The notes beneath the pieces were generated by a model. The model made no database searches. It saw nothing but the letters and a program-made list of their open reading frames with translations, and was not told the DNA's origin. Shown one piece after another: positions 6,525 to 58,928 of a stretch of DNA of 64,000 nt (position 1 is the stretch's first letter; every line of letters starts with the position of its first letter). The DNA is from Actinernus sp. WN-2022 (taxonomy: Eukaryota > Cnidaria > Anthozoa > Actiniaria > Actinernidae): NCBI GenBank assembly GCA_030867875.1, contig JAOWCC010001589.1, positions 88,621,537 to 88,685,536 of the forward strand, read 5' to 3'. The position numbers and the translations under genes are program-made.

Positions 6525-6978
6525 CTAATTTCCAAAATCTATAAGACTCATCCTATTATGCAGTATCATCCTAGTACTTATCATCTCTCTTAATTTCCTC
6601 CCGGTTTGCTTACCAAATAATATATCCCACCTTCCTTTAAAGCCGTTTCCCGCTTTATTTATTATCCATCTCATCAATTTATCCATTCCCGTATATCTAT
6701 CAAAAGGTACAGTTATAAATAACTGATTCTCCCCCGCATTCACTGCACTCACTAGTCTGTTTACATTCCTAGGCTTAACCTTACCCTCCTCATATGAAAC
6801 CCTGCATCCTTGTATTTCCTTTTTTCTGTAACCTAACCTCTTTAAACGTCTCCTAAACAGCGAAAAAGTATGATCATAATCTTCCCGTGATGTTGAATTC
6901 CTTATATAGCGTAAACTTTCAGTTTTTATTAAACCTCTAAAAACACTATTAGGATGGTTAGATTTCCTATTTAAATAC
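6525..6978 (-). pseudogene. Penelope-like element ORF2: C-terminal portion
   Basis: Beyond the TIR insertion the minus strand stays open for about 150 codons. It begins YLNRKSNHPNSVFRGLI, like the RT-thumb passage ('y....S.HP.....gi..s...R') of Penelope elements. It continues ESLRYIRNSTSRED and FRRRLKRLGYRKKEI and ends FGKQTGRKLREMI...IDFGN with a stop at 6525. In endonuclease-bearing relatives a GIY-YIG domain would follow. None is present before the stop or in the next 100 bp. Confidence 0.65.
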
Positions 6979-7420
6979 GTATTTACTCGAATAGACGCCG
7001 CGGCGTTTATTTAAATTTTCATGACTCAGGTGCGGCGTTTATTCGGGGGCGGCGTTTATTCGGGGGCGGCGTTTATTTAGTACCGTAATCCATTTTATTT
7101 CAAGATAAAAAGTGCCTCACTACAGAACTGCGAATCGCCACCATTCTAGAAAGGGAGCTTAGTGAAAGGGCCAAAAAGTATACTCATTTCGAGCTGAACA
7201 ACATTGGCACTCAAGGACAAAAATTCCCATTGCTGATGTAGACATGTTTGTGCTGTCTACCGTAATTAAATACCGTTATATTTGTATTGAAACCAATAGC
7301 TGATTTTCTTCAAATAAACGCCGCATTCAGGTGCGGCGTTTATTCATATTTTTGCTCTCACGTGCGGCGTTTATTCGGGGGCGGCGTTTATTCGGGGGCG
7401 GCGTCTATTCGAGTAAATAC
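6979..7420. mobile_element. TIR element inserted in the Penelope RT (GCGGCGTTTATTC-rich)
   Basis: The ends are a perfect 23-bp inverted repeat (GTATTTACTCGAATAGACGC... on the left, its complement on the right). They are followed inward by copies of GGGGGCGGCGTTTATTC and a less repetitive centre. The arrangement TA-CGTATTT...AAATACGG-TA suggests a TA target and a mariner-type non-autonomous element. RT coding sequence resumes on the other side (YLNRKSNHPNSVFRGLIK), which shows it as an insertion. It has no ORF of its own. Confidence 0.7.
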
Positions 7421-7422
7421 GG

Positions 7423-8996
7423 TAAGCAAACTTATGATGTTCTTTAAAAAAAGTACGTCTATGTACCCTTTGTGTCTCTAAACTAATGTCATCTAAGCAT
7501 AACCTTAAATCTAAATAATTACAACACAATTCATTTACCTCTACCTTAATCTCTAAATTAATAGGATAAAATGCAAACAACCTACACAATTCCTCCTCAA
7601 CTTCGTGTTTCAAGCTATTACTCATTAATATAAACCCATCATCAGCGTATCTCCTCAAAACCCTAACATTAGCAAGTCCACTAGATAGTTGATACTTATA
7701 CTCAGAATACAATAAAACCAAATCGCTTATATCCTTACTAAAATAGCAACCCATACTTACACCCTTAGTTTGCCTAAATACGTCCCTACCAACATTAAAA
7801 TAATTCCAGTCATTACAGTATATATAAAAATCGCTCACTAAATTGCACCTCTTTTCTCCCCAACCTAATATATTACATAAATCCTCTATAGTGCACAATG
7901 CATCTTCTTTCAAAATATTAGTATATAAATCCTTGAAATCATAGGTAATAAACGTATTTCCCTCTAAACCCTCTATTTTTACGGCATCCAAGGCAGTTAT
8001 AAATTCTAAAGTGCTATTTAAAATAGTGTTTTGTAAACCTTGCTCCGAAATTAACACCTTAAACTCACTCAACATCGTTTTCAATTCCCGTTGTAAATAT
8101 TTTGAGGCTTCAAAAGTGCACCAACCATAACCGGTTACAATTGGTCTCCCTCTCAGCATTACCTCCATGTCCACGTTTGCCTTGCCATTAATCTTATGTA
8201 CCTTAGGCATCAAATTTAAACTAGGTAAAATATACTCATCATAGTGTTTACCAGCAAAATAAGTTTTATCAACACTACAAATCTGAGCATCATGTACTTT
8301 CAGTAAACTGGCTAGTTTTTCCTTACACTTCCGTTTCACGCCACTTATGTCATCCACTGTACAAACATACTCATAGAAACCAGACCCCAATTGACGTTTA
8401 TATTCACGTGCATACCAACCCCTGCTATTTATGCTAAAGCCCATTCCCTTGTCCGCCTCCCTCACTATATAATCTACATTTTTTAATAATTTACCAATTT
8501 CCTTTTGCTTATTCCAAGAAAAATTAGTTCTTGCCCCCATTTTACCCAACAATTGTCTTTCACTCTTGCTTATCTTACACGTCACACGATCTATTAACTC
8601 TAGCCCTTTGTAGACAAAAGCCCTTTCATATGCCTTCACCACCGGATGCCGCGCAAAATCCAGCAATCGCCTTCTTATGTTACCCTTTGTCTGTTTTTGT
8701 ATAGTCTTCATTCTTTTTAACCCCAATTTCGTTCCTGTTTTCGCCACTCTCTTCTTGATAATCCTCTCCAACATGTTAGACATGCATGTTTCTGTTCCCT
8801 TCTTCAACTTCCTCACTTTCTTATTGATACTCTCCCCGCGCCGTACTTCAGATGGTATAAAACCGCCACTCAAATTCAGCAAGTCATTCAACTCCACAGT
8901 TGGCTTAAAATCAGTGAAGTTATGATAACCCCCTTCCTCTCGCCTATCCTCTTGGTTTATCTCCTGTTCTAAGTCATCTTGTCTTTTATCCCTATT
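7423..8996 (-). pseudogene. Penelope-like element ORF2: reverse transcriptase, 5' portion
   Basis: The frame is open from 8996 (just after a TAA) and has no ATG near its start. The first in-frame ATG lies well inside, at TCMSNM, so expression may have used frameshifting or read-through from ORF1. Recognisable RT blocks in order: LNLMPKVHK, LRGRPIVTGYGW, NTFITYDFKDLYTNI (catalytic Asp), RQTKGVSMGCYFS, RVLRRYADDGFIL (catalytic DD) and NYLDLRLCLDD. The PKVHK block and 'D-x-x-x-L-Y-T-N-I' form mark Penelope-type rather than LINE RTs. The last codons before the stop at 7371 come from the inserted TIR element, so the gene is broken. Confidence 0.8.
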
Positions 8997-9475
8997 TTAA
9001 TTCTACTTTCCATCATTCTCAACCTCCTTTGGTAAAGTCTTTCAAAGTTCTTAATCGTCCCATTTATCTCATCAGCATAAAGTACACCGCCTCGATTCAT
9101 ACGGCTGCGCCTAGCCTTGGTATAGCCCTCTGTGCGTATTCGTCTTCTCAGTTGTTGTCTCTCTGTTATCAGCAAAATGCGCTTCTGTTCATAAAAAATC
9201 CGTAGTCTCCTCCTCAATTCTTCACATCTCTGCTCCATAACCCTTTCCCTCTCTGCCTCTCCATCTCCTCGATCTGCCTCCTTCAAATTAGAATTACCGT
9301 CAGCATTGTATACATAAATCTTCGAGCCTCCCTTGACCTTTAGATTATACAAGTCGCATGTGCTCGCCTCCAACTCTTTACACAAATCATTCAATGCGTA
9401 CATATCCTCGCTAATTTCACCCTTCATCCTTCTACTTTGCCTTATGGTCTTGAACCAATTCCTTAAAGTGTCCAT
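8969..9475 (-). CDS. Penelope-like element ORF1: charged coiled-coil protein (168 aa)
   Basis: An ATG at 9475 opens a 168-codon frame. The product is highly charged, with Arg/Glu-rich helical heptads in its second half (RCEELRRRLRIFYEQKR, ERLYQRRLRMMESR), consistent with a coiled coil. No enzymatic motif is seen. Its last 28 nt overlap the ORF2 frame in the -1 register. It sits where an ORF1 precedes the RT in several Penelope-like lineages and may bind RNA or form multimers. That role is inferred from position and composition only. Confidence 0.55.
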   Translation of the reverse strand: MDTLRNWFKTIRQSRRMKGEISEDMYALNDLCKELEASTCDLYNLKVKGGSKIYVYNADGNSNLKEADRGDGEAERERVMEQRCEELRRRLRIFYEQKRILLITERQQLRRRIRTEGYTKARRSRMNRGGVLYADEINGTIKNFERLYQRRLRMMESRIKIGIKDKMT

Positions 9476-15234: not shown

Positions 15235-15283
15235 TTATCGCCGAAAAAGAACATAAGCGCAGAAATCTAACTCTATAGAGGCC

Positions 15284-16462
15284 ATGGAAGCGTTCCCAAC
15301 TGAAGACGGGAAAAGACGTGCGCGACTAGATCTACGCCGCGACAGCCTGCCAGCACAGCGGTCGCTTGGAGTGTATTGGGATCTCGAGGAGGACGCATTC
15401 ACCTTCCGAATTTCACCACCAGAGAAACCCTTCACGCGAAGGGGGGAACTCTCGACCGTAAACTCTATCTACGACCCACTCGGGTTGGCAGTACCTGTGC
15501 TATTGGAGGGCAGGCTCCTGCTTCAACAGATAGTTTTAATGGGGAAAAGGAAGAACAACGATGCGCCTCTCGGACGGGAAGATCCCCTTCCCGACGCTCT
15601 ATTGCTACAGTGGCAGCGATGGCGAAGTTCCCTTGCCGATTTAGAGAAAGTATCGGTCCCTCGTTGCTACCATCCTGAGAGTTTTGGCAGAGTCGTCCGG
15701 GCAGAGATCCATGCATTCTCCGACGCAAGCAAAGACGCGATTGGAGCTTCCGTCTACTTGCAACTAATGAACGACAAGAGCGAAGTTAGCACAGCTCTGC
15801 TTCTCGGTCAGTCTAAAGTAGCTCCGGTCCAGACCACTAGCATTCCCCGCCTCGAACTAAGTGGCGCTGTTCTAGCTGCACAATGCGTTGCTAGGATACT
15901 CAAGGAAATCGACATGAAAATCGACGACGTCATCTTCTACACGGACTCGAAAGTCGCGCTTGGCTACATTCAGAACGAGAGCCGGAGATTTTATGTTTAT
16001 GTGGCCAACCGAGTTCAGATCGTGCGTAAGGTCTCCAGACCCAGCCAGTGGAGATACGTCGAGACGAGTGAGAACCCTGCAGATCTCGCCACGCGCTGTC
16101 TCAGCGCCCTCAATCTGGCGGGATCTAACTGGCTGACCGGGCCGAGCTTTCTAAGGGTCCTGACGAGCAAACCAGAGCATGAACAGGAAGACATTCTCCT
16201 GAACGAGCACGACCCTGAAGTTCGCAAAGAAGTCGTAGCGTGCGCCACACTTATACAGAAATACCGGGGCCTCGGAGCCGAAAGGTTTACACGCTTCTCG
16301 AGCCTTCCCTCTCTACAGTGCGCCATTGCCAGTTTCATCGTGATGGTCAAGAAGTTCATGCGCAGGAGGGGCAAGCCTCATGAGAAGGAGCCAAGTTCAA
16401 CAACCGCTCAGAACAGACCAGACTCCGTAGCCCTACAGCAAAGGAGCTTCAGCAGACAATGA
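15284..16462 (+). pseudogene. BEL/Pao pol: post-catalytic RT and RNase H region (392 codons)
   Basis: The frame begins MEAFPTEDGKRRARLDLRRD and reads RSLGVYWDLEEDAFTFRI and STVNSIYDPLGLAVPVLLEG, the passage that follows the YxDD active site in Pao-family pol proteins. Next comes the Pao RNase H: HAFSDASKDAIGASVYL (first catalytic Asp), IPRLELSGAVLAAQ (Glu) and DDVIFYTDSKVALGYI (Asp), then WRYVETSENPADLATR. The frame ends at 16460-16462 in the spacer before the integrase. The RT catalytic motifs lie in the deleted part, so the enzyme is incomplete. Confidence 0.85.
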
Positions 16463-32782: not shown

Positions 32783-32911
32783 AGACGGCCTTTCCCACGC
32801 CGCGGCCATCTTGGAATATACCTATTGTTAATTAATGCTTACCCAGCCTCGGTTCAACACGTTTGAGACCGAGGCTGGGAAAGCATTAACAATAGCGTGG
32901 GAAAGGTCTAT
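32781..32911. repeat. Palindromic MITE
   Basis: ATAGACGGCCTTTCCCACGC at the left pairs with GCGTGGGAAAGGTCTAT at the right. An inner hairpin (CTATTGTTAATTAATGCTT...CCCAGCCTCGGT) folds on its complement. Confidence 0.75.
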
Positions 32912-47400: not shown

Positions 47401-50400
47401 TAAACTACAGAACACCATTTTCTAGTATTAGTGAGCTAGTGCTAATTTTCTACACCTTGAAGGAGACTGAAACTTATAATGGCAGGCCACAAAGAAACAT
47501 GCAATGTCCACTCATTTTTTTCTATCATTGGGGTCACAGCAAGATTAATTTTCATTCCCAAATAATTCTTAAAAGTACTCATACTCCTGATCATGACCGA
47601 GTGAAAGTGGCGATGCTGACGCCAAGAACTGAGGACAACAACAACAATTACATTTATTTTCTCATAAGATGATGGAAATGTATACGAGTAATAAGGCATA
47701 ATAAGAAATACAATGATGAGAAAGTAGGTCCTTAAGGTAACCATCAGATGGAAAACACTGAAACAAGATCTAGCTTGCATGGATATATAATGGTACCAAG
47801 AATGGGGAAGGGAAATAAAGAGTGCTACTTGCATTTAAGTATACTCTCTCAGTTCTGGACCAAATTTAGTTTATTTTATAAACTTGCAATAATGATAAAT
47901 ACACTACTCTATGCATAATATCATTATGTCAGTTCTAAAAAAACAAACATTAAATACACTGTAGAATGCCTGAACCAAGAGATGATAATCAAATACAAAG
48001 AGGTACAGGCCAGATGTAAATAGACCCGGGAAATAGAACAAAATAAAAAGTCAATAATTGTGTTTGGTGGTAACTGTCCCTTGCCCTTGGTCTTGTGTTT
48101 AGGAAAGATTGGTTTTTACCATGCAGTGTCAATAACACGCCACAGATAAATATGCGATTTCCACATCAGAGTCATTTATCGTTCGTTTGAAAAAATCTTC
48201 ATTTCGGATTGCTTACTCAGTTTATACTCACTCACCGCATGCTAGATTTTCGTTCCCGAATTTATAAACATTTAAATACATGTGCATATAATATTTTAAA
48301 AGGCCCTTGTCAGTCAGAGAACTGAGACATCGGGTCATTTCTACTATACTTTCGAGAGGTTAATAACAATAAATAACAACACAACGACAGTCAATTGGTA
48401 TAAAGGTTATCATGTTCAGATTAGCGGCTACTTACATTTACAAGCTGTTGTCTTTATACTTATAGTCAGTGCTGATCGCAGAGCAGATATTTGTCAGTGT
48501 CACTAGTCCGACACGAGTGTATCTTAAAGCGTGTCGCATAATATGTGATAAATTCCCGTCCAAAGCCCGTAAAACACCTCTCAGCTTTAGAAAAGACAAA
48601 AATCTTGGTATTGCACTTGAAGGAACCTTTGGTTTACAGAAAAAAACAGCTGATATAAAGCCGGGTTTTGCTAAGTCAAAACTCCCATTCGCCGCCATCT
48701 TGAAAACCTTGGAAATGTTGTCCACTGTTCACGTGACCAGCACAGTGCAATCTGATTGGTACGGTGGCGAAAAGAACTTCCAAAGAAGGTGCTATCTGAT
48801 TGGTTAACGGCGAAAAAGTTCGACATTGAAAAAAAAAACATTTGCGATTTAAGACTCGTGCCGGCCAAAGGCCTGGCCCGAGTAATAAGGAGCACTGATA
48901 TCAGTACTAGAATGGTTAGGGCTGAGAAAATGTTCAGAAACGGCTGTAGGTTTAGATTTGAGGTCGTCTGTGTTCGTTAAAACGGTCTTTGAGGCATCGT
49001 TTTGTTTCTCCGATGTATTGTGAATTACAGTAGTGACATTGAACCATGTAAATTACGTTTTTAGTATTACATGTAATGTGAGATTTGATATGGTGAGTTT
49101 CGTCAGTGGAGGAAAAAGTGTATTGATTGAGGTGAAATGTAATTTCACCGTTTGACCTTTATTGTCGGCTGTTACTCGTATCTGCACTATCTTTTCAAAC
49201 CTATTTCGTAATTTCCTTTTAGTTGTTACTATTTTAAAAAACATATGTCATCGATTTTGTAATTTCCGCTCATAGTTACGTAATTAACAATATATAAGCC
49301 CTGCAACGAGTTTGGTATTATAATTTCGGATTTGGCCGTGCCATTTCCATTTTGCACTACTAGATCCCCTTCGGAGAGATCCACATTGCTATTGCGCTTG
49401 TTCACATCTCTAGCTCCCACACGTGTAGCGTGGTGGCTGGGGTTTAAAGCAGCTTTCGAGCTCGCCGCTAGAGTAACCAGATTCTGAGGCCTATGATCTA
49501 AAGTGAGGCTGACGGTCTTGGGGGCTATGCCATGCTGATGAGTCCTAACAAGGACGAAACAGCTGTACATGGTTGCCACTCTACCGGTAATAAGATGTGA
49601 GCATGCGTATTAGGCGCTAGCTACGTCATAGCGTGTGTTGTGTAGTGCCATGCAACGAGTTTGGTATTATAATTTCGGATTTGGCCGTGCCATTTCCATT
49701 TTGCACTACTAGATCCTCTTCGGAGAGATCCACATTGCTATTGCGCTTGTTCACATCTCTAGCTCCCACACGTGTAGCGTGGTGGCTGGGGTTTAAAGCA
49801 GCTTTCGAGCTCGCCGCTAGAGTAACCAGATTCTGAGGCCTATGATCTAAAGTGAGGCTGACGGTCTTGGGGGCTATGCCATGCTGATGAGTCCTAACAA
49901 GGACGAAACAGCTGTACATGGTTGCCACTCTACCGGTAATAAGATGTGAGCATGCGTATTAGGCGCTAGCTACGTGATAGCGTGTGTTGTGTAGTGCCAT
50001 GCAACGAGTTTGGTATTATAATTTCGGATTTGGCCGTGCCATTTCCATTTTGCACTACTAGATCCTCTTCGGAGAGATCCACATTGCTATTGCGCTTGTT
50101 CACATCTCTAGCTCCCACACGTGTAGCGTGGTGGCTGGGGTTTAAAGCAGCTTTCGAGCTCGCCGCTAGAGTAACCAGATTCTGAGGCCTATGATCTAAA
50201 GTGAGGCTGACGGTCTTGGGGGCTATGCCATGCTGATGAGTCCTAACAAGGACGAAACAGCTGTACATGGTTGCCACTCTACCGGTAATAAGATGTGAGC
50301 ATGCGTATTAGGCGCTAGCTACGTCATAGCGTGTGTTGTGTAGTGCCATGCAACGAGTTTGGTATTATAATTTCGGATTTGGCCGTGCCATTTCCATTTT

Positions 50401-53400
50401 GCACTACTAGATCCTCTTCGGAGAGATCCACATTGCTATTGCGCTTGTTCACATCTCTAGCTCCCACACGTGTAGCGTGGTGGCTGGGGTTTAAAGCAGC
50501 TTTCGAGCTCGCCGCCAGAGTAACCAGATTCTGAGGCCTATGATCTAAAGTGAGGCTGACGGTCTTGGGGGCTATGCCATGCTGATGAGTCCTAACAAGG
50601 ACGAAACAGCTGTACATGGTTGCCACTCTACCGGTAATAAGATGTGAGCATGCGTATTAGGCGCTAGCTACGTCATAGCGTGTGTTGTGTAGTGCCATGC
50701 AACGAGTTTGGTATTAAGCCTTGTATCCATTTGTGACCTCCACTGTAAAATAAACCTGAAAAAGGCTGGTACTGGCCAGCCGAAATATCGTATAAACCTC
50801 GACAAGCGTTGTATTTGATCAGCATTGCAGTAGTCTTCGGATACTATCATCAAGTTTGTTAGCAAGATGAAGCTAATTTACAAATATATTTTGTATTTGA
50901 ATCAGAATTTATAGAAAAAGACCTTGTTTTCACCCGTTTTCTTGACATGTGATCACGTGACTTATTGCTGCACCTTTATAATGTTAACGTTATTGGCGTA
51001 TTTGTTTATTGCTTATTTTTAGAATGTTATAAGACATTTGGTACGTTTTGGGCAGTTTTATAGTTCAGCCTCGTTTTCATGCCGACACTGAATCACGGAG
51101 GATGCATTCTTATTCTTTTAATTACTCTCTCCAATTCGGCTTTTCTTTTACCATTGTATTTATTATGTCCCAATTAACAATCGGAAACTGTTTATTAAGC
51201 AGCAAACATGTCCTTTGGGTTTTTATAGAAAACGTGGTCTTATGTTTAGAAAAAAGATGTTTTCCTGGATTTAGCCACCACGTGATAAGTCACGTGACAT
51301 CCAGTTACCCTAATTGTACCCAATGGAAAATCCTCAATAGTTTCTTTTGTTTCTGACCAGTTTTATGACGATTGAATCAGAACTTTGTATTTTATAAGCC
51401 GAAAATGCCGATTGCCTCGCTTCATGCTGAACACGAGGCCGTGACAGAAAAAAACCTTAATCTCGAAACTTGTACCACAATCTGAGTGTATGCATTAAAG
51501 GGCGGATATTGTTCCACAAGAATCAGGTGTCAAACCTTTTCTGTAGTGTGGGTTGTGCTCCTGAAATCCTAAAATAAGCCTTTCTCAGGAAATAGCTCCT
51601 TGCCTATATGTTGTTTTGAAAGTCGTCTACAGCTGGGGCTAAAATTATTGAAACACTTTGCTTCCATAGCGCCCCCATTTCCCCTGTGCAATGTTGGTTA
51701 CAAGTGCGTTATGACTATCTCGCACTTGCAACTCTGACTTTGCACCCAACATTGATACGAGGAAGGGGGTTCCAGTCCGACGATCAAACCATGTCGAGTG
51801 CTCAACTAGTAATACGAATTTCAGCTTTCAAACAACGAATTTCACCTTCAGAACTATTCTGTTGCGAGTACCAAATGATCTAGAAACACAAAAATGCGAT
51901 TTGATGAACTGAGAACGGAGTATAATACGGATTACGCTGTTCGTCGAACGAACTACTAGACTGTGAATCGATTATACAGCCCACTTCATTACCCATACCC
52001 ACTGCGCATCGAAGTTTTAGCAATTGGTGACGGTGGCATAATACATTGCATTCATTTCTATAATCCAAGATGGCAAAAGTTTTGTTTAAATACATCGCGA
52101 TTGGGTAGATTATACAAGTAGAAGATTGTGGTACGCTTCACTAATTGCTAAACAAAATGATGCGCAGAAGGGGATATGAAATAAACTAGGCTGAAAAAAA
52201 TATATCACCGGGCCATTTGCAAATTTGCCTGTAACATATCATATATGTAACAGGCTTGGGTCGGCTTAGTTGGGTGATGAAAAATGAAATATTTTATGGG
52301 GAGGCTTTAACTTCATACATTGTTGTTGTAAATTGTGTGAATGCAAGAAATAATTTCAGGTTTTACAAATAAATGGATAAAGAATAGCATTAGTTTTTTT
52401 AACCAATGAGGAGTAAAATTTAAATTATCAATGAGGACATTTTCATCACTTTTTAAGAATGAAATCATGACTTGTGGAAGTATCAGTTCTTTTCAATGCT
52501 GTAAACTAAAAAAAATATCACCTTGGAAGTTGTTGTTGTCTCAAGTACATTAAGGCCTGAGTTTGACCTTGTTCAGTGCCAGGCTCGCCCCAGAAAATAT
52601 TTAATGTTTTCTTGTCTTACTTTACTAATAGTTACTATTTTAAAATTATAACTTAACATTTTGTTGGGTTTGACTTCCTCAACATTTGCAGTTCTTCTTA
52701 TGGTGATCACGTGATTAGTGACGTCATTGCTAAGAGAAATACATTATAAAGAATGGGGCTGCTAGTTCTATACATCGGAGAAAATTGATCATGAAAATAA
52801 GATTGCTTTAACAAGTCAAATAGAATCACGGTTAAACATGTTGTTTTTATTGATTAGGGGATATGATATTAAGGGGGGAATTTGGTCACGTGACCTGTTT
52901 TGCTGAATATCCCCTTAACAGTAAACGATAGTCAAGTTCTGTAAGCGTGACTTTGTAGAAATCAGTATTCAAAATATACTGGATATAGAAACTTGTTAAC
53001 TTGGTGAAAACTCGCAACCCCATTTTAGAAGGAGTTTCCCCTCTGACACTGACTCGTGTTAACAGGTCACGTGACTATCCAAAAACGCTAGTTATGGTTC
53101 TTTATCACGTGAAGTTCTATTGATGTACTGAGTTTCACATATTTCTGTGAAGGTTCTAGTTCATAATCTTGAAAAATGTGTTTTCCTATTTTCGGTCAAT
53201 GACCCAGGCCTTAACGTACTTGAGCTCCTCTTCTAATGCGCAGAAGGGCATGCGCATACCAAAGCTGATTTCGTATCCCTATGTGATAAGTGAAACATAC
53301 ACCTATTTCGTCATACTGAGGTTGTCACGGACAAACTACAAACGACAAAGGTTTGTGGTTATAACTGTCCAGCTATATGCAAAACGGATACACTACGGTA

Positions 53401-56400
53401 TGATTCGAAAATCGATTCGCAGAAGACCATTAATTTGGACATATATTTCATCATTACATTAGATTCAATGGATAACGGTAGTTCCTGTAAAAAAAAAAAC
53501 TAGCTATAGTGTTTGCCTGCGTCGGCGGGGAAGATAAACACTGGTATGATCAACTAAAAGTCGATTAAGGTATGCTAACCGTCGTGGGGAGCGAGTAGCA
53601 GCTGACGTTTCGAGCGCTAGCCCTTCGCTGATAGTTTAGTTGATTATACCAGTGATTCATACGTTACAGGTTATACAAGTAGACACACGTACATGTACGT
53701 TAGAAATCAATAGACTACTCAATAATAGTAATATAATACTATTGCTCTTACTTTTTCATAATCAAATTTACTGTAATGCATAATTTCATTATTTTACGAT
53801 TATTATTACAATGAGTAACTGACTTCACAAGTAGTTTGTTAAAAGCTAAATACCATGACACTTCATGACAGAGTTATCCATCCATCCACAAAAACAAACG
53901 CATTCACCAGACGTTCAGCTACAACCACATTCCATTTTGGTTTGGGTTTTTAACGTTTGTCCGTGATAACCATTTTTGAAAATAGGTCTATACCGAAAGT
54001 GAACTATTCTACGAGGTGTTGCTTAAATGTTTTTTAATGCACAAATAAAGCATGTGTTCCGTCGTCTCTAACTAGGTGTTGAAGAAAACCTACCGGAAGA
54101 TATAAATCAGTGGAAAAAACAGCACATTCGCATTTGGTTACGGGATGAAGTTGAAGTCGAAGACAAGTACGTTGAGCAGCTAATCGACGGTGGTCTTACC
54201 AAGATTAGTCTCGTGAGGTATACGACAGATAAAGACGCTTTTGATAAAGAGTTTAAAGAGATCCCACGCACGGTCAGAAGAAATATTATCGACGCATGGG
54301 AAAAAATAACGGAAAGGGAGATTTTGCAACAAAAGCATTCGAGTGCTGATAAAACTGACTACTCAAAGCCTCCTCAACGACGAAGGAGTCACTCACCCGT
54401 CTCACAAAACTCGCCGAATAATACCAACTTTTCAGCTACTGGGCATCAAGATGAAATCAACGATCCTTTAGCTTTGAGGAGGGATACCGCTACACCTTTA
54501 AGTAACGACAAAACGTCAAAGCAATCTGAATCTCAAGTTAAACATGATTTAGCTCAAAAAGCAGCAAGCAATGTTTCTAAACTTCAAGAATTATTCCGTA
54601 CATTTGATACCGATGAAAATTGTAAATATCACAGGAATTGTCAACTTTTACCCGAGACAGGACCGGATGATTTGATGACACCTTGCCACGAATATAAAGC
54701 TTTCCAGGTTGCTGCGCAAGCAGAAAAAGTTACGAAGCAAATTAACTTCATGAAACATCTGGTAAAATTTGCCTGTGCCTGTTTGAATGAACGCTCCAAC
54801 GGAACAATTCATTTCGGTGTTGGCGACGACATCGAAAAAGATGATAAAGGAAAACCAAAGTGCAAACATGGCGAGATCCTTGGAATTGCAGTAGGTGAAA
54901 ATGATCGAAAGTATTTCACGGAATGGACCGAGGAAGCTATTCGAAAGTGCTTTAGAATCTGCAACACAAAGGGGAAAGCCGTGTCACCAACGGACTGTGA
55001 TTTATCCAAATGCCTTCGTCGACCAAAGTTTATCCCACTTTATTCAGCAGAGATGACACAGTTGTTCGTAGTGGAAGTTGATATCGTTCCAAATTCCTTG
55101 GTGTGCGAGGATTACCATTTCAAGGTCAGAGCTCCTACTAAACCTGCGAAAGGAGGACGCATTCAGTTTACACAAAAGTATCTATTATATCGACGTATTG
55201 GAGCCTCTTCAGAACCGGCCAATGGAAAAGCACCAGAGACCACCTTTGTAAACGATGAGCTACCGGTAAAAATTAAATTGCGAAAGGACGTCGAACAACA
55301 GCAGGCGTACAAGAAAGTTCAAAGCGAATCATTACTAGATAATGAAAAAAAGTTGACAAGTTTCTTATTGAACGGTCACAGGAGTATTGATGACGTGTAC
55401 CCCATCTTAGTTTGCAGCCGTCCTGATGAGCACACGAATGCTGCGAGAGATCTCTCGTTTGTGGCGCAGTTGGATTGCACCGTAGTTTTCGACTTTGATG
55501 TCGATTCAGAAAACCATGGATTAGCCGGGGCTTGCAAAATTAAGTTTGAGCAGGGAAATATCAAGTACATTCGATCTTATGCCATAGAAAGTGAGGTATT
55601 CTCGTCTGACAAGTCTACGGATAAATTTTGTGAGAGCTTAAACTTCAAAAACGATGTTGTTTGGATATATCCTAATGGACATTCCAAGTATAACAACGAG
55701 GGGAATTGTGATCAGCCAGAAACTGCCATGTCTCTTCAAGAGTGGACTGAAAAAAGGAACCGCAAAATTGGTGACGCCATATACATGCTTTCCAATGCTG
55801 GAGTCATACCAGAACACCGAGCGTCTGTAATGTGCATTTTACTTAATTCTGACCCAGAAAGCATGAAGATCATGTGTGAGTGCATTCATAATTTACTCGT
55901 TCGCTTCGGGTTGGATAAAATGTTTTTTATTATCAATAACGACCGTGTCCGCGATGCCTTTCTTCGACACATAGGCGAGAGGTATACAAAAGATAAGCTA
56001 GAAAAGCGAATGATTGTCGGGATGCCGTGGTCACAAGTCAACAAAGCCATTGCACATCTAAGAGGCTACGTTCCTGACAACAGCTGTGTAGTTCGCTTTT
56101 CTAACGGTGGGTTGTGCGAGATTGATATAGCTACACAACGACGTCTTAAAAATATCACCATTGTTGGAGTTAAACAGTGCGACGACAAGAACATGCAAAA
56201 CGATGAAATTTTTCAACAGGAAGAGGAGCAAACATTCTTCAATGGTGAGAAGGCAAGTTGGTGGAATTTTTTCTTTCCGGGACAAGTATGTAGAAGAGAG
56301 ATAGTAGATGAGTACTACTATAAAATCTATCACGCAAGGTACAGACAGCTTGAAGAATATGTGTATCTAATGGAGCTAAAGCACCAGCGAGGAGCAGGAG

Positions 56401-58928
56401 GATCAACCGTTGCACGAAATCTCCTCTGGGAGCTGCGAAAATATTTCCGTTGTGCAGAAATCACGGAAATCGACAAAGACGCAACAAACGAAACCGCAAA
56501 ACAAATCTTCGAACTTTATCTTTATGAAGAGGATAATCCGTTAAACTGTTTGCCTGTATTTGCTGTTTTGGACATTGAATGCGAAGATGAAGTTGTAAAT
56601 GATTTGAAAAACGACCTTGAAGAACTCTTTCGCGTGAAAGGAGCCCGCACGCCAGCTTGTATCCTTCTTCATTGCTCATCAAAGTTCAATGCAGATGCAT
56701 GCGACATAAAGCAAGAGCTCTCTCAAGGAGAACTGAAATGGTTTGAGAACAAGGAAGAGGAAATGCAGCAGCACATATCAAAGGAAGCCACTGGTGCACA
56801 ACACTCTGAACTAACTGCATTCAAATCTCTCAATACAATGCTCGGATTTCAGGTGTTGAGACATAATTTTAACTTTGAACGGATAAAACAGATCGTATGC
56901 AGCTTGGTGGATAATGTCAAACCCGATGAGAGAAATTTACTGAAGTTTTTGGCCTTGATGCAGTTTTATGTAAATGATTGCATTCCACTGCCTTGCTGCG
57001 ACGCCATCATGGCCCCTATGTGGCAACGCGAGTTAAGTAAAGAGTTTGAACAGTTAACCGTTTGGTATCGTGGCACCATCTCTCCCAACCAGCGAATAGT
57101 CTCAAGCGTCAACTTATTGACGATTAGTCATTATTATGTTAGCAAAGCCCTGCTGGAAGATAATGAAAAATTGTCACAGATAACATCAAAGTTTCTGCAG
57201 TCCAATTTGCTTCGATCCCATTCACACGCAAGAATGATTCTCTGCAAGTCAGCTACGACTATGATGAAACTTCGCAAAGATTCTGATGACAAACAAAGTT
57301 TGACAGCACCCAAGCACAAGTTCTCAGAATTTATTACAGACATTATTGAAAGAGAAACTCCATTGATGGCGGCAGAAATCTTACAAGAGTGTTTTGAGGC
57401 CTTGACGGAATTTTACACAGATCCTTTTCTACTCCAACAAGCAGCGAGAGTTTACTATTTGAAGACAGATGATTTCAAAGAAGCCCTGCGTCTTGCGGAA
57501 AAAGCAATCAAAGTCCAAGGAACCCCAAGTTCCTATCTGCTTGACACAAAAGGTCAAGTCTATAAAGAACAACTAAAGCACGACTTTTCGACGAATCAAT
57601 CGAGCAATTGGACCATCGACGATGGGCGTAAAATTATTGACCTTTCTTTGAAAGCCATGGATGTCTTTAAGGAGTCCCTGAAAGCGGCGAAAGATGAAGC
57701 CTTGGAAGCATTTGCGAAGTATGAACGGCGGAAGTTTAACGATGCAGGCTTGTACGGTAGCCTTTATATTACTTATGACCTCATCGAAAGGCTTTCTCAA
57801 GTGGAGCATATCGACTTGGACGTCGTAAAGTCTTACATCCTTAATCCTAACACAGAAATTCCGATTGAATGGTGTCAGTACCATTCGTGCATCAAAAGAA
57901 TCAAGCCATATGTCGACCAACTTATGGAAAAATTAGCAGAACGACAGCTTGGAGCAAACCAGTTCGAAGAACTGCAAGCTACGATTGATATGCGTAATAA
58001 GAGCTACAATGACATAAAAAACAAGTACAAAAAGTACTTCGGAAGTTCGTTTCCTCCAAGTGAAGCAGATAATCCAGATATTTCTGAGCAAAGGAGGCAG
58101 AATATCAGATCCAGAGCTATTTCAGTGTGTACGCTAACTGGAGAGCAAATTCGAGATAACCGACCCTCAGCTAAAGTACTTGGGTTTGCGAACGTGTTCG
58201 ACCTTTTCCAGTGGTTCTGGATTTATTACGGGAAGAAAGAGGAGACTTGCACCTTTGCAATAAAAAATCTACGTGAAGTAAGAAATAGTCTACAGCAAAA
58301 CACCCCAAAGTCAAGTTACGATTTGAAGATGCTAATTTATATTAATCTGTTTCTTGCCAACTTCGAAGATAATAAAACTGATACACAAGCATTTTACAGA
58401 GAAACGGTTGATTACTGCAAAGAATATTTTACTAAAGAAGTGAAAAACATCTATCCAGCTTCCCTAATGGTGATGTTAATGTGGCCGCGTGAAGATTTAC
58501 CGGTACCATACGACAACGCACTCTTTGCTGCCGCCTTGAAACGCCTAGACACTACCAGAGATTTGGTGGATAGCGCGAAGGATACCGTTCAATTTTACTT
58601 GGGTAAGGGCCGCGGACTTCAGGTATTTGTGCAGCCCAAGAAATTGTCACATGGTAGCAAATTTAGAGTTGACAGAGATATCTTCTGGAGGGAAAAGAAT
58701 GTGGAAGAGAAGGTTTGCCGAATGAAAGGATATTCCAGTCATGTGACACAAATCCTAGCAAACAACGTGTGCAACATCAGGGAGCCCATTCTTGTACATT
58801 CTAAAAAAGCTCTGCTAAGATTTTCACAAGAACCAGGAACATTTGTTCTCGGATTCAGAAAGTCTGGACCAATTGCCTTTGACTGGCAGGAAACGGGTAA
58901 GAAGCAGTCCAAGTTCAAAGTTATCTAA
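35075..58928 (+). CDS. SAMD9-like: SAMD9/SAMD9L-like protein with ubiquitin-like domain (5-exon model, 1797 aa)
   Basis: Join 35075-35110, 36337-36563, 40028-40196, 40632-40740 and 54076-58928. All introns are GT-AG and the phases match (0, 2, 0, 1); the total is 5394 nt. Domains by residue: basic N-terminus 1-88, ubiquitin-like about 89-173 (ending RGLLGG), SAM about 187-260, a low-complexity linker, AlbA_2/Schlafen-like about 385-560, STAND-type P-loop NTPase (GAGGSTVAR about 953; FAVLDIE about 1010), helical repeats about 1150-1600, C-terminal OB-like region. Vertebrate SAMD9/SAMD9L restrain viruses and translation in the cytosol. Function here is inferred from family. Exons 3-5 are firm; exons 1-2 rest on splice sites and phase alone. 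Confidence 0.7.
35410..35541. repeat. MITE with CTTGGTTTACA ends
   Basis: Left CTTGGTTTACA and right TGCAAACCAAG are inverted. Inner CGGCGGCCATGTTGGAGGA and TCCTCCAACATGGCCGCCGC also pair. Related in style to 32637-32782. Confidence 0.75.
35577..35835. repeat. MITE with TATCAATGTT ends
   Basis: Ends GCAGCTATCAATGTTGAACC and GGGCTTAACATTGATAGGTG are inverted. The interior is rich in GGTGGGGATTTGA motifs repeated in both orientations. Confidence 0.7.
35985..36300 (-). repeat. Truncated LINE 3' end (minus strand)
   Basis: On the minus strand the sequence ends GGTGAAGAGCCACCTGGTGG...AATAAATTATTATTATTA, a 3' UTR with microsatellite tail in the style of cnidarian LINEs. No coding part remains. 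Confidence 0.5.
36337..36563 (+). CDS. SAMD9-like gene, predicted exon 2 (basic region)
   Basis: Open throughout between a good acceptor (TTCTTAATTGACAG) and donor (CAAAT/GTAAGT). It encodes NFVEALRKWKEYARRSQDID, then a Lys/Arg-rich helical stretch (IVKLKREKNKTLHAMIWR, KKVEKKND). I do not recognise the domain. The split codon AT+G joins exon 3 in frame. It could instead belong to a different small gene, but both boundaries and both phases fit. Confidence 0.5.
37860..37942. repeat. Hairpin MITE
   Basis: GGATGGATATCTCAGTTTTC (37863 on) pairs with GAAACTGAGATATCCATCC ending at 37940, around a CGGCCATCTTGG loop. Confidence 0.75.
37964..39098 (-). pseudogene. 5'-truncated LINE RT fragment (minus strand)
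   Basis: Minus-strand frames give RLFAMDFRKAFDFVNHSIL (motif A), NKGTVQGNVSGPYLFNIFLN (motif B), DAADDSSIIVPV (motif C) and, in another frame, NELNILGITFQQDCKFSIHV and IIIPKITYGLSVYGSSEAD. The copy ends in an ATT microsatellite at 37965-37983, the target-primed 3' end. Several frameshifts; inactive. Lies in intron 2 of the SAMD9-like gene, antisense to it. Confidence 0.8.
39642..39774. repeat. MITE with GTTGTTCGAAGCAAGG ends
   Basis: GGGCCGGGTTGTTCGAAGCA at the left and TTGCTTCGAACAATCG at the right are inverted. Paired GCGCTATCC/GGGTTAGC-type inner motifs. Confidence 0.75.
40028..40196 (+). CDS. SAMD9-like gene, exon 3 (first half of ubiquitin-like domain)
   Basis: Bounded by TTTTTGTCAG and AACAGG/GTAAGT. 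Encodes STVSILQLFVHCDVGSSPLV, then VSSQDAVSTVAAEISERYGV and DKMNLYDERHNR. The alternating strand, turn, strand and amphipathic helix order, with short hydrophobic strands, is that of a beta-grasp/ubiquitin-like fold. It joins exon 4 in phase 0. Confidence 0.75.
40632..40740 (+). CDS. SAMD9-like gene, exon 4 (second half of ubiquitin-like domain)
   Basis: Encodes LCPLLSFEDNGIIDEMNIHV, then KVVRGLLGG and VKPEGAT. 'L..y.I.de..I.v..R..GG' is the closing part of ubiquitin-like folds. It splices to exon 5 after one base (ACAG/GTATTT, next AG/GTGTTGAAG), giving ATGVEENLPEDI. Confidence 0.75.
41076..41322 (+). pseudogene. CXC-like cysteine cluster fragment, probably transposon-derived
   Basis: A short frame with CRCGKSACTRNCSCKSNELS then CTEACFC, resembling the Cys-rich tail found in many cnidarian transposon-encoded proteins and, more distantly, tesmin-type CXC domains. 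No adjoining domain, so the parent is unclear. Sits at the start of the large intron. Confidence 0.45.
41531..41820. repeat. Fold-back MITE
   Basis: ATAGGCCCTTTGCAGCTAAC at the left and GTTAGCTGCAAAGGGCATAT at the right; inner GTACTGGAGAGCAAAAAATA pairs with TTGCTCTCCAGTATTC. Confidence 0.75.
41821..44427. other. Intron sequence, no gene recognised
   Basis: Open stretches at 42164-42367 (minus), 42701-42928 and 43026-43247 (plus) and 43353-43538 (minus) match no family I know and lack clear splice context. An inverted pair, CAGATCGCACTGTGCTGGTCACG (43805) and CGTGACCAGCACAGTGCAATCTG (48736), suggests a further diverged repeat. Confidence 0.5.
44428..45235 (+). repeat. Interspersed repeat copy B (empty-site copy)
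   Basis: Counterpart of 12598-14221 without the G-tract insertion; one TCTTCAAT at 45188-45195. Overlapping short ORFs are not conserved in copy A. Confidence 0.75.
45236..46229. other. Intron sequence, no gene recognised
   Basis: No coding sequence, TIRs or arrays stand out in this stretch. Confidence 0.5.
46230..46705 (-). mobile_element. Penelope-like element 3' fragment with GIY-YIG tail (copy 1)
   Basis: On the minus strand the end of a GIY-YIG endonuclease frame reads VTFSKRDSVRKARESYLIYK, then LEPLGMNRRDEM and a stop, typical of Penelope C-termini. A long terminal sequence follows down to about 46230. It contains the uninterrupted sequence TATATAAGCCTTGTATCC (about 46415-46432), the empty version of the retrozyme insertion site at 49.3 kb. 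A hammerhead-like motif at 46361-46405 is damaged by a deletion. Confidence 0.75.
46361..46405 (-). ncRNA. Degenerate Penelope-type minimal hammerhead (copy 1)
   Basis: Minus strand: an intact CUGAAGA and the first side of stem II (GGCUGGUAC), but about 14 nt carrying the other side of stem II and GAAA are missing, so it cannot fold. The defect differs from that in copy 2. Confidence 0.5.
46706..48437. other. Intron sequence, no gene recognised
   Basis: Contains a G-rich patch with repeated GGTTATGGTATGCCAGGGGG (about 46877-46955) and a short CA-rich tract. No coding evidence. Confidence 0.5.
48438..48725 (-). other. Unrecognised ORF (95 codons) starting AAGATGGCGGCG
   Basis: A good start context (CAAGATGGCG) opens MAANGSFDLAKPGFISAVFF, with a basic, Leu-rich middle (FLSFLKLRGVLRAL). 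I recognise no domain and see no clear donor site. It could be a first exon, a repeat or chance. The GCCGCCATCTTG motif is common in MITEs in this window, which lowers confidence. Confidence 0.2.
48885..49132 (-). pseudogene. Penelope-type GIY-YIG endonuclease fragment (copy 2)
   Basis: Minus-strand frames give SHITCNTKNVIYMVQCHYC, then NSQYIGETKRCLKDRFNEHR and, after a frameshift, KPTAVSEHFLSPNHSSTDI. The Cys-rich lead-in, 'Y-I-G-E-T-x-R-x-L-x-x-R' and 'EH' spacing are those of the GIY-YIG domain in Penelope elements. It is truncated at both ends and points away from the adjoining long terminal sequence, so the junction near 49133 is an inversion. Confidence 0.75.
49529..49573 (+). ncRNA. 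Type I hammerhead ribozyme, unit 1
   Basis: Stem I GCCAUG pairs with CAUGGU. The core is CUGAUGA, stem II is GUCC/GGAC around UAACAA, then GAAA. Stem III is the self-complementary ACAGCUGU, too short to close stably alone, so activity as a dimer is likely. The cleavage triplet is GUA, with the predicted cut between 49567 and 49568. All core residues are present. Confidence 0.93.
49878..49922 (+). ncRNA. Type I hammerhead ribozyme, unit 2
   Basis: Same core and stems as unit 1, 349 bp downstream; predicted cut after 49916. Cleavage here and in unit 1 would release one 349-nt monomer. Confidence 0.93.
50227..50271 (+). ncRNA. Type I hammerhead ribozyme, unit 3
   Basis: Identical in the ribozyme segment to units 1 and 2; predicted cut after 50265. 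Confidence 0.93.
50576..50620 (+). ncRNA. Type I hammerhead ribozyme, unit 4
   Basis: Identical ribozyme segment; predicted cut after 50614. The remaining array 3' of it is only about 100 nt (incomplete unit). Confidence 0.93.
50750..50800 (+). ncRNA. Degenerate Penelope-type minimal hammerhead (copy 2)
   Basis: CCUGAAAA is followed by a stem II (GGCUGG...CCAGCC), then GAAA and AUAUCG. It fits the minimal hammerhead known from Penelope long terminal repeats, where stem III is two pairs without a loop. The core G before the last A of CUGANGA is A here, so it should be inactive. Confidence 0.55.
50881..53499. other. Intron sequence, no gene recognised
   Basis: A small inverted pair (TTAGGGGATAT at 52855 and ATATCCCCTTAA at 52910) brackets a 67-bp segment. 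Open stretches at 51048-51356 and 53169-53462 show no domain. Confidence 0.5.
53500..53660 (-). repeat. Fragment of a second Penelope-type terminal repeat
   Basis: On the minus strand CGAAGGGCTAGCGCTCGAAA precedes CGTCAGCTGCTACTCGC. This resembles the region of Penelope terminal repeats that carries a minimal hammerhead (stem II, GAAAC, GUC triplet). The CUGANGA part is not preserved, so any ribozyme here is dead. It belongs to a different subfamily from the 46-50 kb copies. Confidence 0.45.
54076..58928 (+). CDS. SAMD9-like: SAMD9-like gene, exon 5 (SAM, AlbA_2, STAND NTPase, TPR-like, OB-like)
   Basis: Begins after CTCTAACTAG in frame with exon 4 and runs 1616 codons to TAA. The SAM part is NQWKKQHIRIWLRDEVEVED...LVRYTTDKDAFDKEFKEI. 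A Ser/Pro-rich linker follows. FMKHLVKFACACLNERSNGT and IHFGVGDD match the AlbA_2 domain of SAMD9, the nuclease-like effector part. HQRGAGGSTVARNLLWELRK is the P-loop; like vertebrate SAMD9 it lacks the usual Lys. VFAVLDIECEDE is the Walker B candidate. AARVYYLKTDDFKEALRLAE starts the helical repeats. The C-terminus (LQVFVQPKKLSHGSKFRVD...FVLGFRKSGPIAFDW) matches the OB-like end. About the length of vertebrate SAMD9. A single uninterrupted coding exon is also usual for vertebrate family members. Confidence 0.93.

Follow-up and report, generated by a model that had tools for sequence, protein, structure and literature searches.

The question raised by this locus is how four nearly identical tandem units, each carrying a type I hammerhead ribozyme, came to lie in one block of contig JAOWCC010001589.1. 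The stretch of DNA analyzed, 64,000 nucleotides in length and hereafter called the window, is rich in transposons as judged from the Pfam domains of its open reading frames, and the block in question begins at position 49301. Our answer, to which we assign a probability of roughly 85%, is that the array represents a metazoan non-LTR (long terminal repeat) retrozyme, a small non-autonomous retroelement, present in the genome as a four-unit copy. The array and its borders are as follows.

49301 to 50714 (periodic identity to 50716), plus strand: putative retrozyme array of four 349-bp units and a 17-19-nt overlap, delineated by repeat finding and unit comparison.
49295 to 49300, no strand assigned: left copy of the probable target-site duplication TAAGCC, from border comparison and a chance estimate.
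50715 to 50720, no strand assigned: right copy of the probable duplication TAAGCC, the first two bases of which also continue the unit.

For positions 49298 to 50716, Tandem Repeats Finder reported a period of 349, 4.1 copies, 99% matches and 0% indels. A column-by-column comparison of the four units revealed four variable columns, located at 49301 (the left edge of unit 1), 49368 (unit 1), 49976 (unit 2) and 50516 (unit 4). These values agree with a preliminary description of this DNA, which had claimed four near-identical repeats of 349 bp. Every difference is private to one unit and none is common to two, which is what simultaneous copying of all units from a single template would produce. 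The identity extends beyond the four whole units: TGCAACGAGTTTGGTATTA is present at the left and the right end alike. The right end thereby repeats the opening of the first unit as a terminal overlap of 17-19 nt, the length of which varies with the placement of the borders.

The hexamer TAAGCC directly abuts the array on both sides, and a looser reading of the borders provides a 9-bp match with one mismatch. When 40,000 pairs of positions were drawn at random from the window, with the same border freedom allowed and pairs less than 50 bp apart skipped, a border repeat arose by chance in 0.59% of cases for six exact bases, in 0.27% for the nine-base form and in 0.79% for either. The AT content is 80% in the 20 bp to the left of the array, 70% in the 40 bp to the left and 65% in the 40 bp to the right, the value for the window being 61%. 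The TAAGCC pair is a probable target-site duplication, and in combination with differences that are private only it points to a single recent insertion of a copy that was already tandem, a form that repeated rounds of copying on a circular RNA would be expected to yield. The recent insertion put forward in the preliminary description is likewise consistent with the private differences.

These same features bear on the possibility that the array is ordinary satellite DNA, produced from a single copy by unequal crossing over or by DNA rolling-circle amplification, with the ribozyme as a passenger. It was in animal satellite DNA that hammerheads were initially observed (PMC6155905), and the window contains a single array, both of which speak for such an origin. 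The sharp borders with their duplicated TAAGCC, the presence of four units only, and the lack of any difference shared by two units argue against it, and we regard it as improbable.

The ribozymes of the four units, all identified with the Rfam model RF00163, are located at the following positions.

49529 to 49573, plus strand: type I hammerhead of unit 1, 33.3 bits, predicted cut after 49567.
49878 to 49922, plus strand: type I hammerhead of unit 2, 33.3 bits, predicted cut after 49916.
50227 to 50271, plus strand: type I hammerhead of unit 3, 33.3 bits, predicted cut after 50265.
50576 to 50620, plus strand: type I hammerhead of unit 4, 33.3 bits, predicted cut after 50614.

With Rfam searched under an E-value threshold, the Hammerhead_1 model was matched in four of four units over its full length (model positions 1-45 of 45), with E-values of 4.6e-6 over a 1.6-kb stretch and 1.8e-4 over the whole 64 kb. 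No minus-strand hammerhead was listed, either for the array stretch or for the whole window. Core positions follow the standard hammerhead scheme: the core is formed by CUGAUGA, GAAA and the G-U-A preceding the cut. The inner stem I contains 6 bp, one of them a G-U pair, and is separated by a UAU/U internal loop from an outer stem of 3 bp. Stem II is composed of 4 bp and is capped by the loop UAACAA, such that loops for a possible loop 1-loop 2 contact (UAU/U and UAACAA) are present in the sequence. Helix III corresponds to the palindrome ACAGCUGU. The core, the 6-bp stem I, the 4-bp stem II and the palindrome are thus as the preliminary description had them. The bare pattern CTGANGA-N(8-25)-GAAA occurs nine times in the window, with four of the matches inside the array, against 3.3 expected and a largest shuffle value of 8, and on its own it is weak evidence. 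The full motif occurring four times in register, however, is unlikely to have arisen by chance.

The unit has no recognized coding capacity. Indeed, the one unit-long frame tested, which lies mostly in unit 3, has no Pfam match, and its length of 113 amino acids was equalled by 8.8% of 500 base-order shuffles. No tRNA gene was found in the window, and a tRNA-like start or RNA polymerase III promoter was considered and dropped, the best A-box being equalled in 13-14% of shuffles and the best B-box in 100%. No LTR was seen for the array, no dedicated search for an LTR, a primer binding site or a polypurine tract having been made. The GC content of unit 1 is 49.6%.

Metazoan non-LTR retrozymes consist of repeats a few hundred bp long (about 170-400 bp) that are arranged in tandem and carry type I hammerheads (Cervera and de la Pena 2020; PMC7229834). 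Retrozyme RNAs measure ~170-400 nt, and their circles are abundant and most likely closed by tRNA ligase. The GC content is given as below 50% in the text and below 45% in a figure legend, and target-site duplications, when present, exceed 4 bp (PMC7229834). For comparison, duplications of 15 bp accompany the Nematostella repeats (PMC4918200). The array resembles these elements in its tandem units, type I hammerhead, GC content below 50%, self-paired RNA and duplication longer than 4 bp (PMC7229834). Its unit size, which falls inside a range of about 150-450 bp for this class, and its tandem arrangement, type I hammerhead, lack of a recognized coding domain, GC content and probable duplication accordingly support its assignment as a retrozyme, the identity first proposed for it. 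Elements of this kind have been described in animals (PMC7229834), just as the preliminary description held.

In one respect the array differs from most invertebrate retrozymes, namely in a weak palindromic helix III of the amphibian type in what is apparently an invertebrate host (PMC7229834). Whereas most invertebrate retrozyme hammerheads cleave efficiently, the amphibian hammerheads, whose helix III has just one pair capped by a palindromic tetraloop, work best as dimers (PMC7229834). By description, there is a close likeness to the newt and axolotl HHR_Amex1-type repeats, with units of 330-350 bp, a single-pair helix III, a palindromic tetraloop and dimer cleavage (PMC7229834). Unlike those repeats, the sequence considered here is a four-unit array, and the genome encodes invertebrate-looking proteins. 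In many type I hammerheads a weak helix III blocks monomer cleavage (PMC7761336).

The RNA expected from cleavage at successive ribozymes was the subject of folding calculations.

49568 to 49916, plus strand: predicted 349-nt RNA monomer or circle, from the first cut to the second (likewise 49917 to 50265 and 50266 to 50614).

The linear fold of the first of these has a predicted energy of -126.6 kcal/mol (z -3.36), and none of 100 shuffles was as stable. Within a single motif, helix III amounts to only 2 bp, the core A-U and one C-G, closed by a four-base loop, whereas two ribozymes paired through the palindrome would share a helix III of 8 bp. In a tandem transcript with two ribozymes, the paired double hammerhead is predicted at -153.8 kcal/mol with 34 of the 34 wanted pairs, the unconstrained fold at -154.0 kcal/mol, and two single hammerheads at -139.7 kcal/mol with 26 of 30 wanted pairs. 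In these models dimer cleavage of the array RNA appears plausible. The isolated 67-nt segment behaves differently: its hammerhead fold lies at -14.2 kcal/mol, in contrast to -25.9 kcal/mol for the best predicted fold, in which GCUG, a stretch containing the first core bases, pairs with the CAGC of the palindrome. This pairing is referred to as the lock. The predicted equilibrium is dominated by the lock, rather than by the single or the paired hammerhead. Thus, of the earlier proposal that the palindrome favors dimer cleavage, one part holds, in that the paired form surpasses two single ones in the tandem model, but the lock is preferred overall.

In the 349-nt circle, the hammerhead with stems I and II lies 1.7 kcal/mol above the best fold, and 6.2 kcal/mol above it when the 2-bp helix III is included. 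On these values, the lock in the circle would not be deep. Among the 64 six-base palindromes, ACAGCUGU ranks second for the gap to a non-hammerhead fold (-11.4 kcal/mol). The median palindrome also shows a gap of -7.7 kcal/mol, so part of the gap stems from the rest of the segment, and the notion that the lock is a peculiarity of ACAGCUGU is weakened. In published retrozymes, the in vivo block on the ribozyme within the circle is probably provided by something other than self-pairing (PMC7229834).

A scheme for how such an array might arise can be outlined. The array would be transcribed across several units, and the hammerheads, if active, would cut the RNA every 349 nt, probably best when two of them pair via the palindromic helix III. 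By analogy with published retrozymes, a host ligase would close the 349-nt pieces into circles. The circle might then be copied for approximately four rounds by a reverse transcriptase, for which a Penelope-like element is the most likely source, and the product would be inserted with a short target-site duplication. Penelope-like elements are regarded as strong candidates for mobilizing retrozymes (PMC7229834). For one Penelope-like enzyme, reverse transcription has been shown to begin within its own RNA at a stem-loop, the targets being AT-rich and a 'tail' of 30-40 bp being optional (PMC11167929).

Three features at or beside the array are pertinent to this last step.

48955 to 49155, minus strand: decayed fragment that retains part of a GIY-YIG endonuclease domain (PF01541), ~150 bp before the left border of the array.
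50756 to 50785, plus strand: hammerhead-like motif with a defective core, found by pattern match ~40 bp to the right of the array.
49641 to 49671, plus strand: hairpin of 12 bp predicted in the unit RNA, in coordinates of the junction between units 1 and 2; both array ends fall inside the corresponding sequence.

The domain PF01541 was recognized with an E-value of 4.4e-4 and a score of 20.9 bits, the curated cut-off being 22.6, over profile positions 2-32 of 78. We take the fragment to be the end of a Penelope-like gene, and it probably derives from such an element. The motif to the right, which in our view resembles the minimal hammerhead motifs of Penelope-like elements, has no Rfam match; the pattern used, composed post hoc, matched once in the window with zero expected in shuffles. 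No reverse transcriptase was recognized by eye to the right of the array in the minus frames of 50710 to 53400 or in the plus frames of 50710 to 51500.

With respect to the hairpin, its own stability was reached by 9 of 500 shuffles. The overlap of 17-19 nt, with both ends in one predicted 12-bp hairpin, resembles the 'tail' of Penelope-like insertions (PMC11167929) but is shorter and comes from a single array. There are eight terminal hairpins, which together span 63% of the ring, and the coincidence of the array ends with one of them is weak because of this coverage. For the same reason, the placement of both ends in one hairpin was rejected as proof of Penelope-type initiation and serves as a lead only. 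The adjoining GIY-YIG fragment and the tail-like overlap suggest, without proof, which enzyme copied the array. A finding that arrays of this family share one hairpin as start and end point, with a short overlap, would provide genomic evidence for Penelope-type internal initiation.

Elsewhere in the window, a set of reverse transcriptase frames at 6528 to 9457 on the minus strand, with the reading frame broken, has 19 listed relatives, 18 of them at 35-50% identity and one at 25%. From its motifs it is presumably an endonuclease-less Penelope-like reverse transcriptase, and, like the probable remnants beside the array, it counts in favor of the proposed scheme. No Pfam match was obtained for its three frames, and zero solved structures matched. 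The frame is interrupted at 6978 to 7421 by a 444-bp insert resembling a miniature inverted-repeat transposable element, which is bounded by perfect terminal inverted repeats of 24 bp and has direct repeats of 17 bp (GCGGCGTTTATTCGGGG) in its interior.

A more elaborate version of the scheme may also be envisaged, in which the palindrome serves as a copy-number sensor: in the unit or circle the core would be locked off, in a multi-unit RNA the palindromes would pair and switch cleavage on, and a Penelope-type enzyme would then copy the circle from one hairpin, leaving the 17-19-nt overlap as its 'tail' signature. We consider this version speculative and rather unlikely. If true, it would explain why animal retrozyme circles stay closed. 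Neither terminal overlaps nor locks were found mentioned for retrozymes in the parts of the retrozyme and Penelope-like literature examined.

The surroundings of the array raise a further alternative, whereby it would be the pseudo-LTR of a Penelope-like element rather than a separate retrozyme. Pseudo-LTR hammerheads of such elements are, like those described here, of type I, with a minimal helix III and in tandem (PMC7761336, PMC11167929), and two flanking features also fit, namely the GIY-YIG fragment, ~150 bp away on the left, and the hammerhead-like motif, ~40 bp away on the right and sharing the strand of the array. The array differs from them, however, in its extended stem I with an outer helix and an internal loop, and no reverse transcriptase was recognized in it or joined to it, including by eye among the right-flank frames translated. 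Penelope hammerheads are described as missing either helix III or the loop contacts (PMC7761336). In addition, the near-identical units stand against a decayed fragment on the opposite strand, and taken together these differences leave the pseudo-LTR very improbable.

That the array is an integrated copy of an infectious viroid-like circular RNA, whose design a small, strongly self-paired RNA with a ribozyme would fit, is scarcely credible, given a hammerhead listed on one strand only and the absence of exact matches for two probes in viral contigs, with only 29-nt matches in three phage records, even if such collections need not contain an RNA of this type. Specifically, the exact pattern of the ribozyme core with a free loop II gave zero matches in viral contigs and zero in bacterial and archaeal genome contigs, a 22-base unit probe gave zero exact matches in viral contigs, and the three phage matches of 29 nt (E 0.03) are taken as chance. 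None of these collections is an animal genome set, so absence from them says little.

Several observations weigh against the retrozyme assignment itself. The covariance check proposed in the preliminary description yielded its full-length match in all four units at a score 0.7 bits short of the curated cut-off of 34, and under curated gathering thresholds Rfam returned no match anywhere in the window. The GC content meets the limit of 50% in the retrozyme text yet exceeds the 45% of the figure legend (PMC7229834). Read as 6 exact bp, the duplication leaves one additional C at the left edge; read as 9 bp, it contains a mismatch. A second copy of the unit is absent from the window, and a sequence search for diverged copies elsewhere in the 64 kb gave one 13-nt match only (E 0.76). 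When two 67-nt segments are modelled as separate molecules, the double hammerhead (-44.3 kcal/mol) lies above both two locked monomers (-51.8 kcal/mol) and the best joint fold (-54.2 kcal/mol). In partition functions for transcripts of one to three units, the lock pairs have probabilities of 0.92-1.0, and values of 0.02-0.37 were obtained for those pairs of the inner stem I that were checked. Note that the energy models omit hammerhead tertiary contacts, so the fold energies are no measure of activity. Finally, the GIY-YIG fragment sits on the strand opposite to the array and may be a mere neighbor; because the region is transposon-rich, the neighborhood alone proves little.

With these points taken into account, the array is real, was probably inserted recently and is very likely one more clean case of a known retrozyme class. 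Its noteworthy aspects are the combination of a dimer design with a host that is probably an invertebrate, the lock predicted between core and palindrome, and the likely Penelope-like setting. It makes testable both what keeps the ribozyme from re-opening the circle and which enzyme mobilizes animal retrozymes.

With regard to other features of the window, a single open frame of 1618 codons extends on the plus strand from 54072 to 58928. It has SAMD9-like relatives and, when compared with Pfam, gives no match at an E-value of 0.01. Two of its 26 listed relatives show 65% and 61% identity and the other 24 show 23-29%; the best-scoring named relative is a SAMD9-like protein from the hemichordate Glandiceps talaboti (28%), and the other named ones are from fish and one snail. 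A frame of a long interspersed nuclear element (LINE) has 649 relatives. Of the 120 listed, four carry a source name, two of these being generic. The top match, at 47%, belongs to a metagenome-assembled 'Gammaproteobacteria' genome, which is taken as misassigned animal DNA, and the remaining one is from the coral Oculina patagonica, at 43%. From these relatives, the host is an animal and probably an invertebrate. A frame at 15257 to 16462 on the plus strand, with a Pao retrotransposon peptidase domain (Pfam, E 3e-40), indicates remnants of the BEL/Pao type in the window. A weak mir-3130 match at 32824 to 32893, detected on both strands with scores of 32.1 and 29.4 bits (E 0.023 and 0.12) against a curated value of 95, is perhaps a transposon palindrome.

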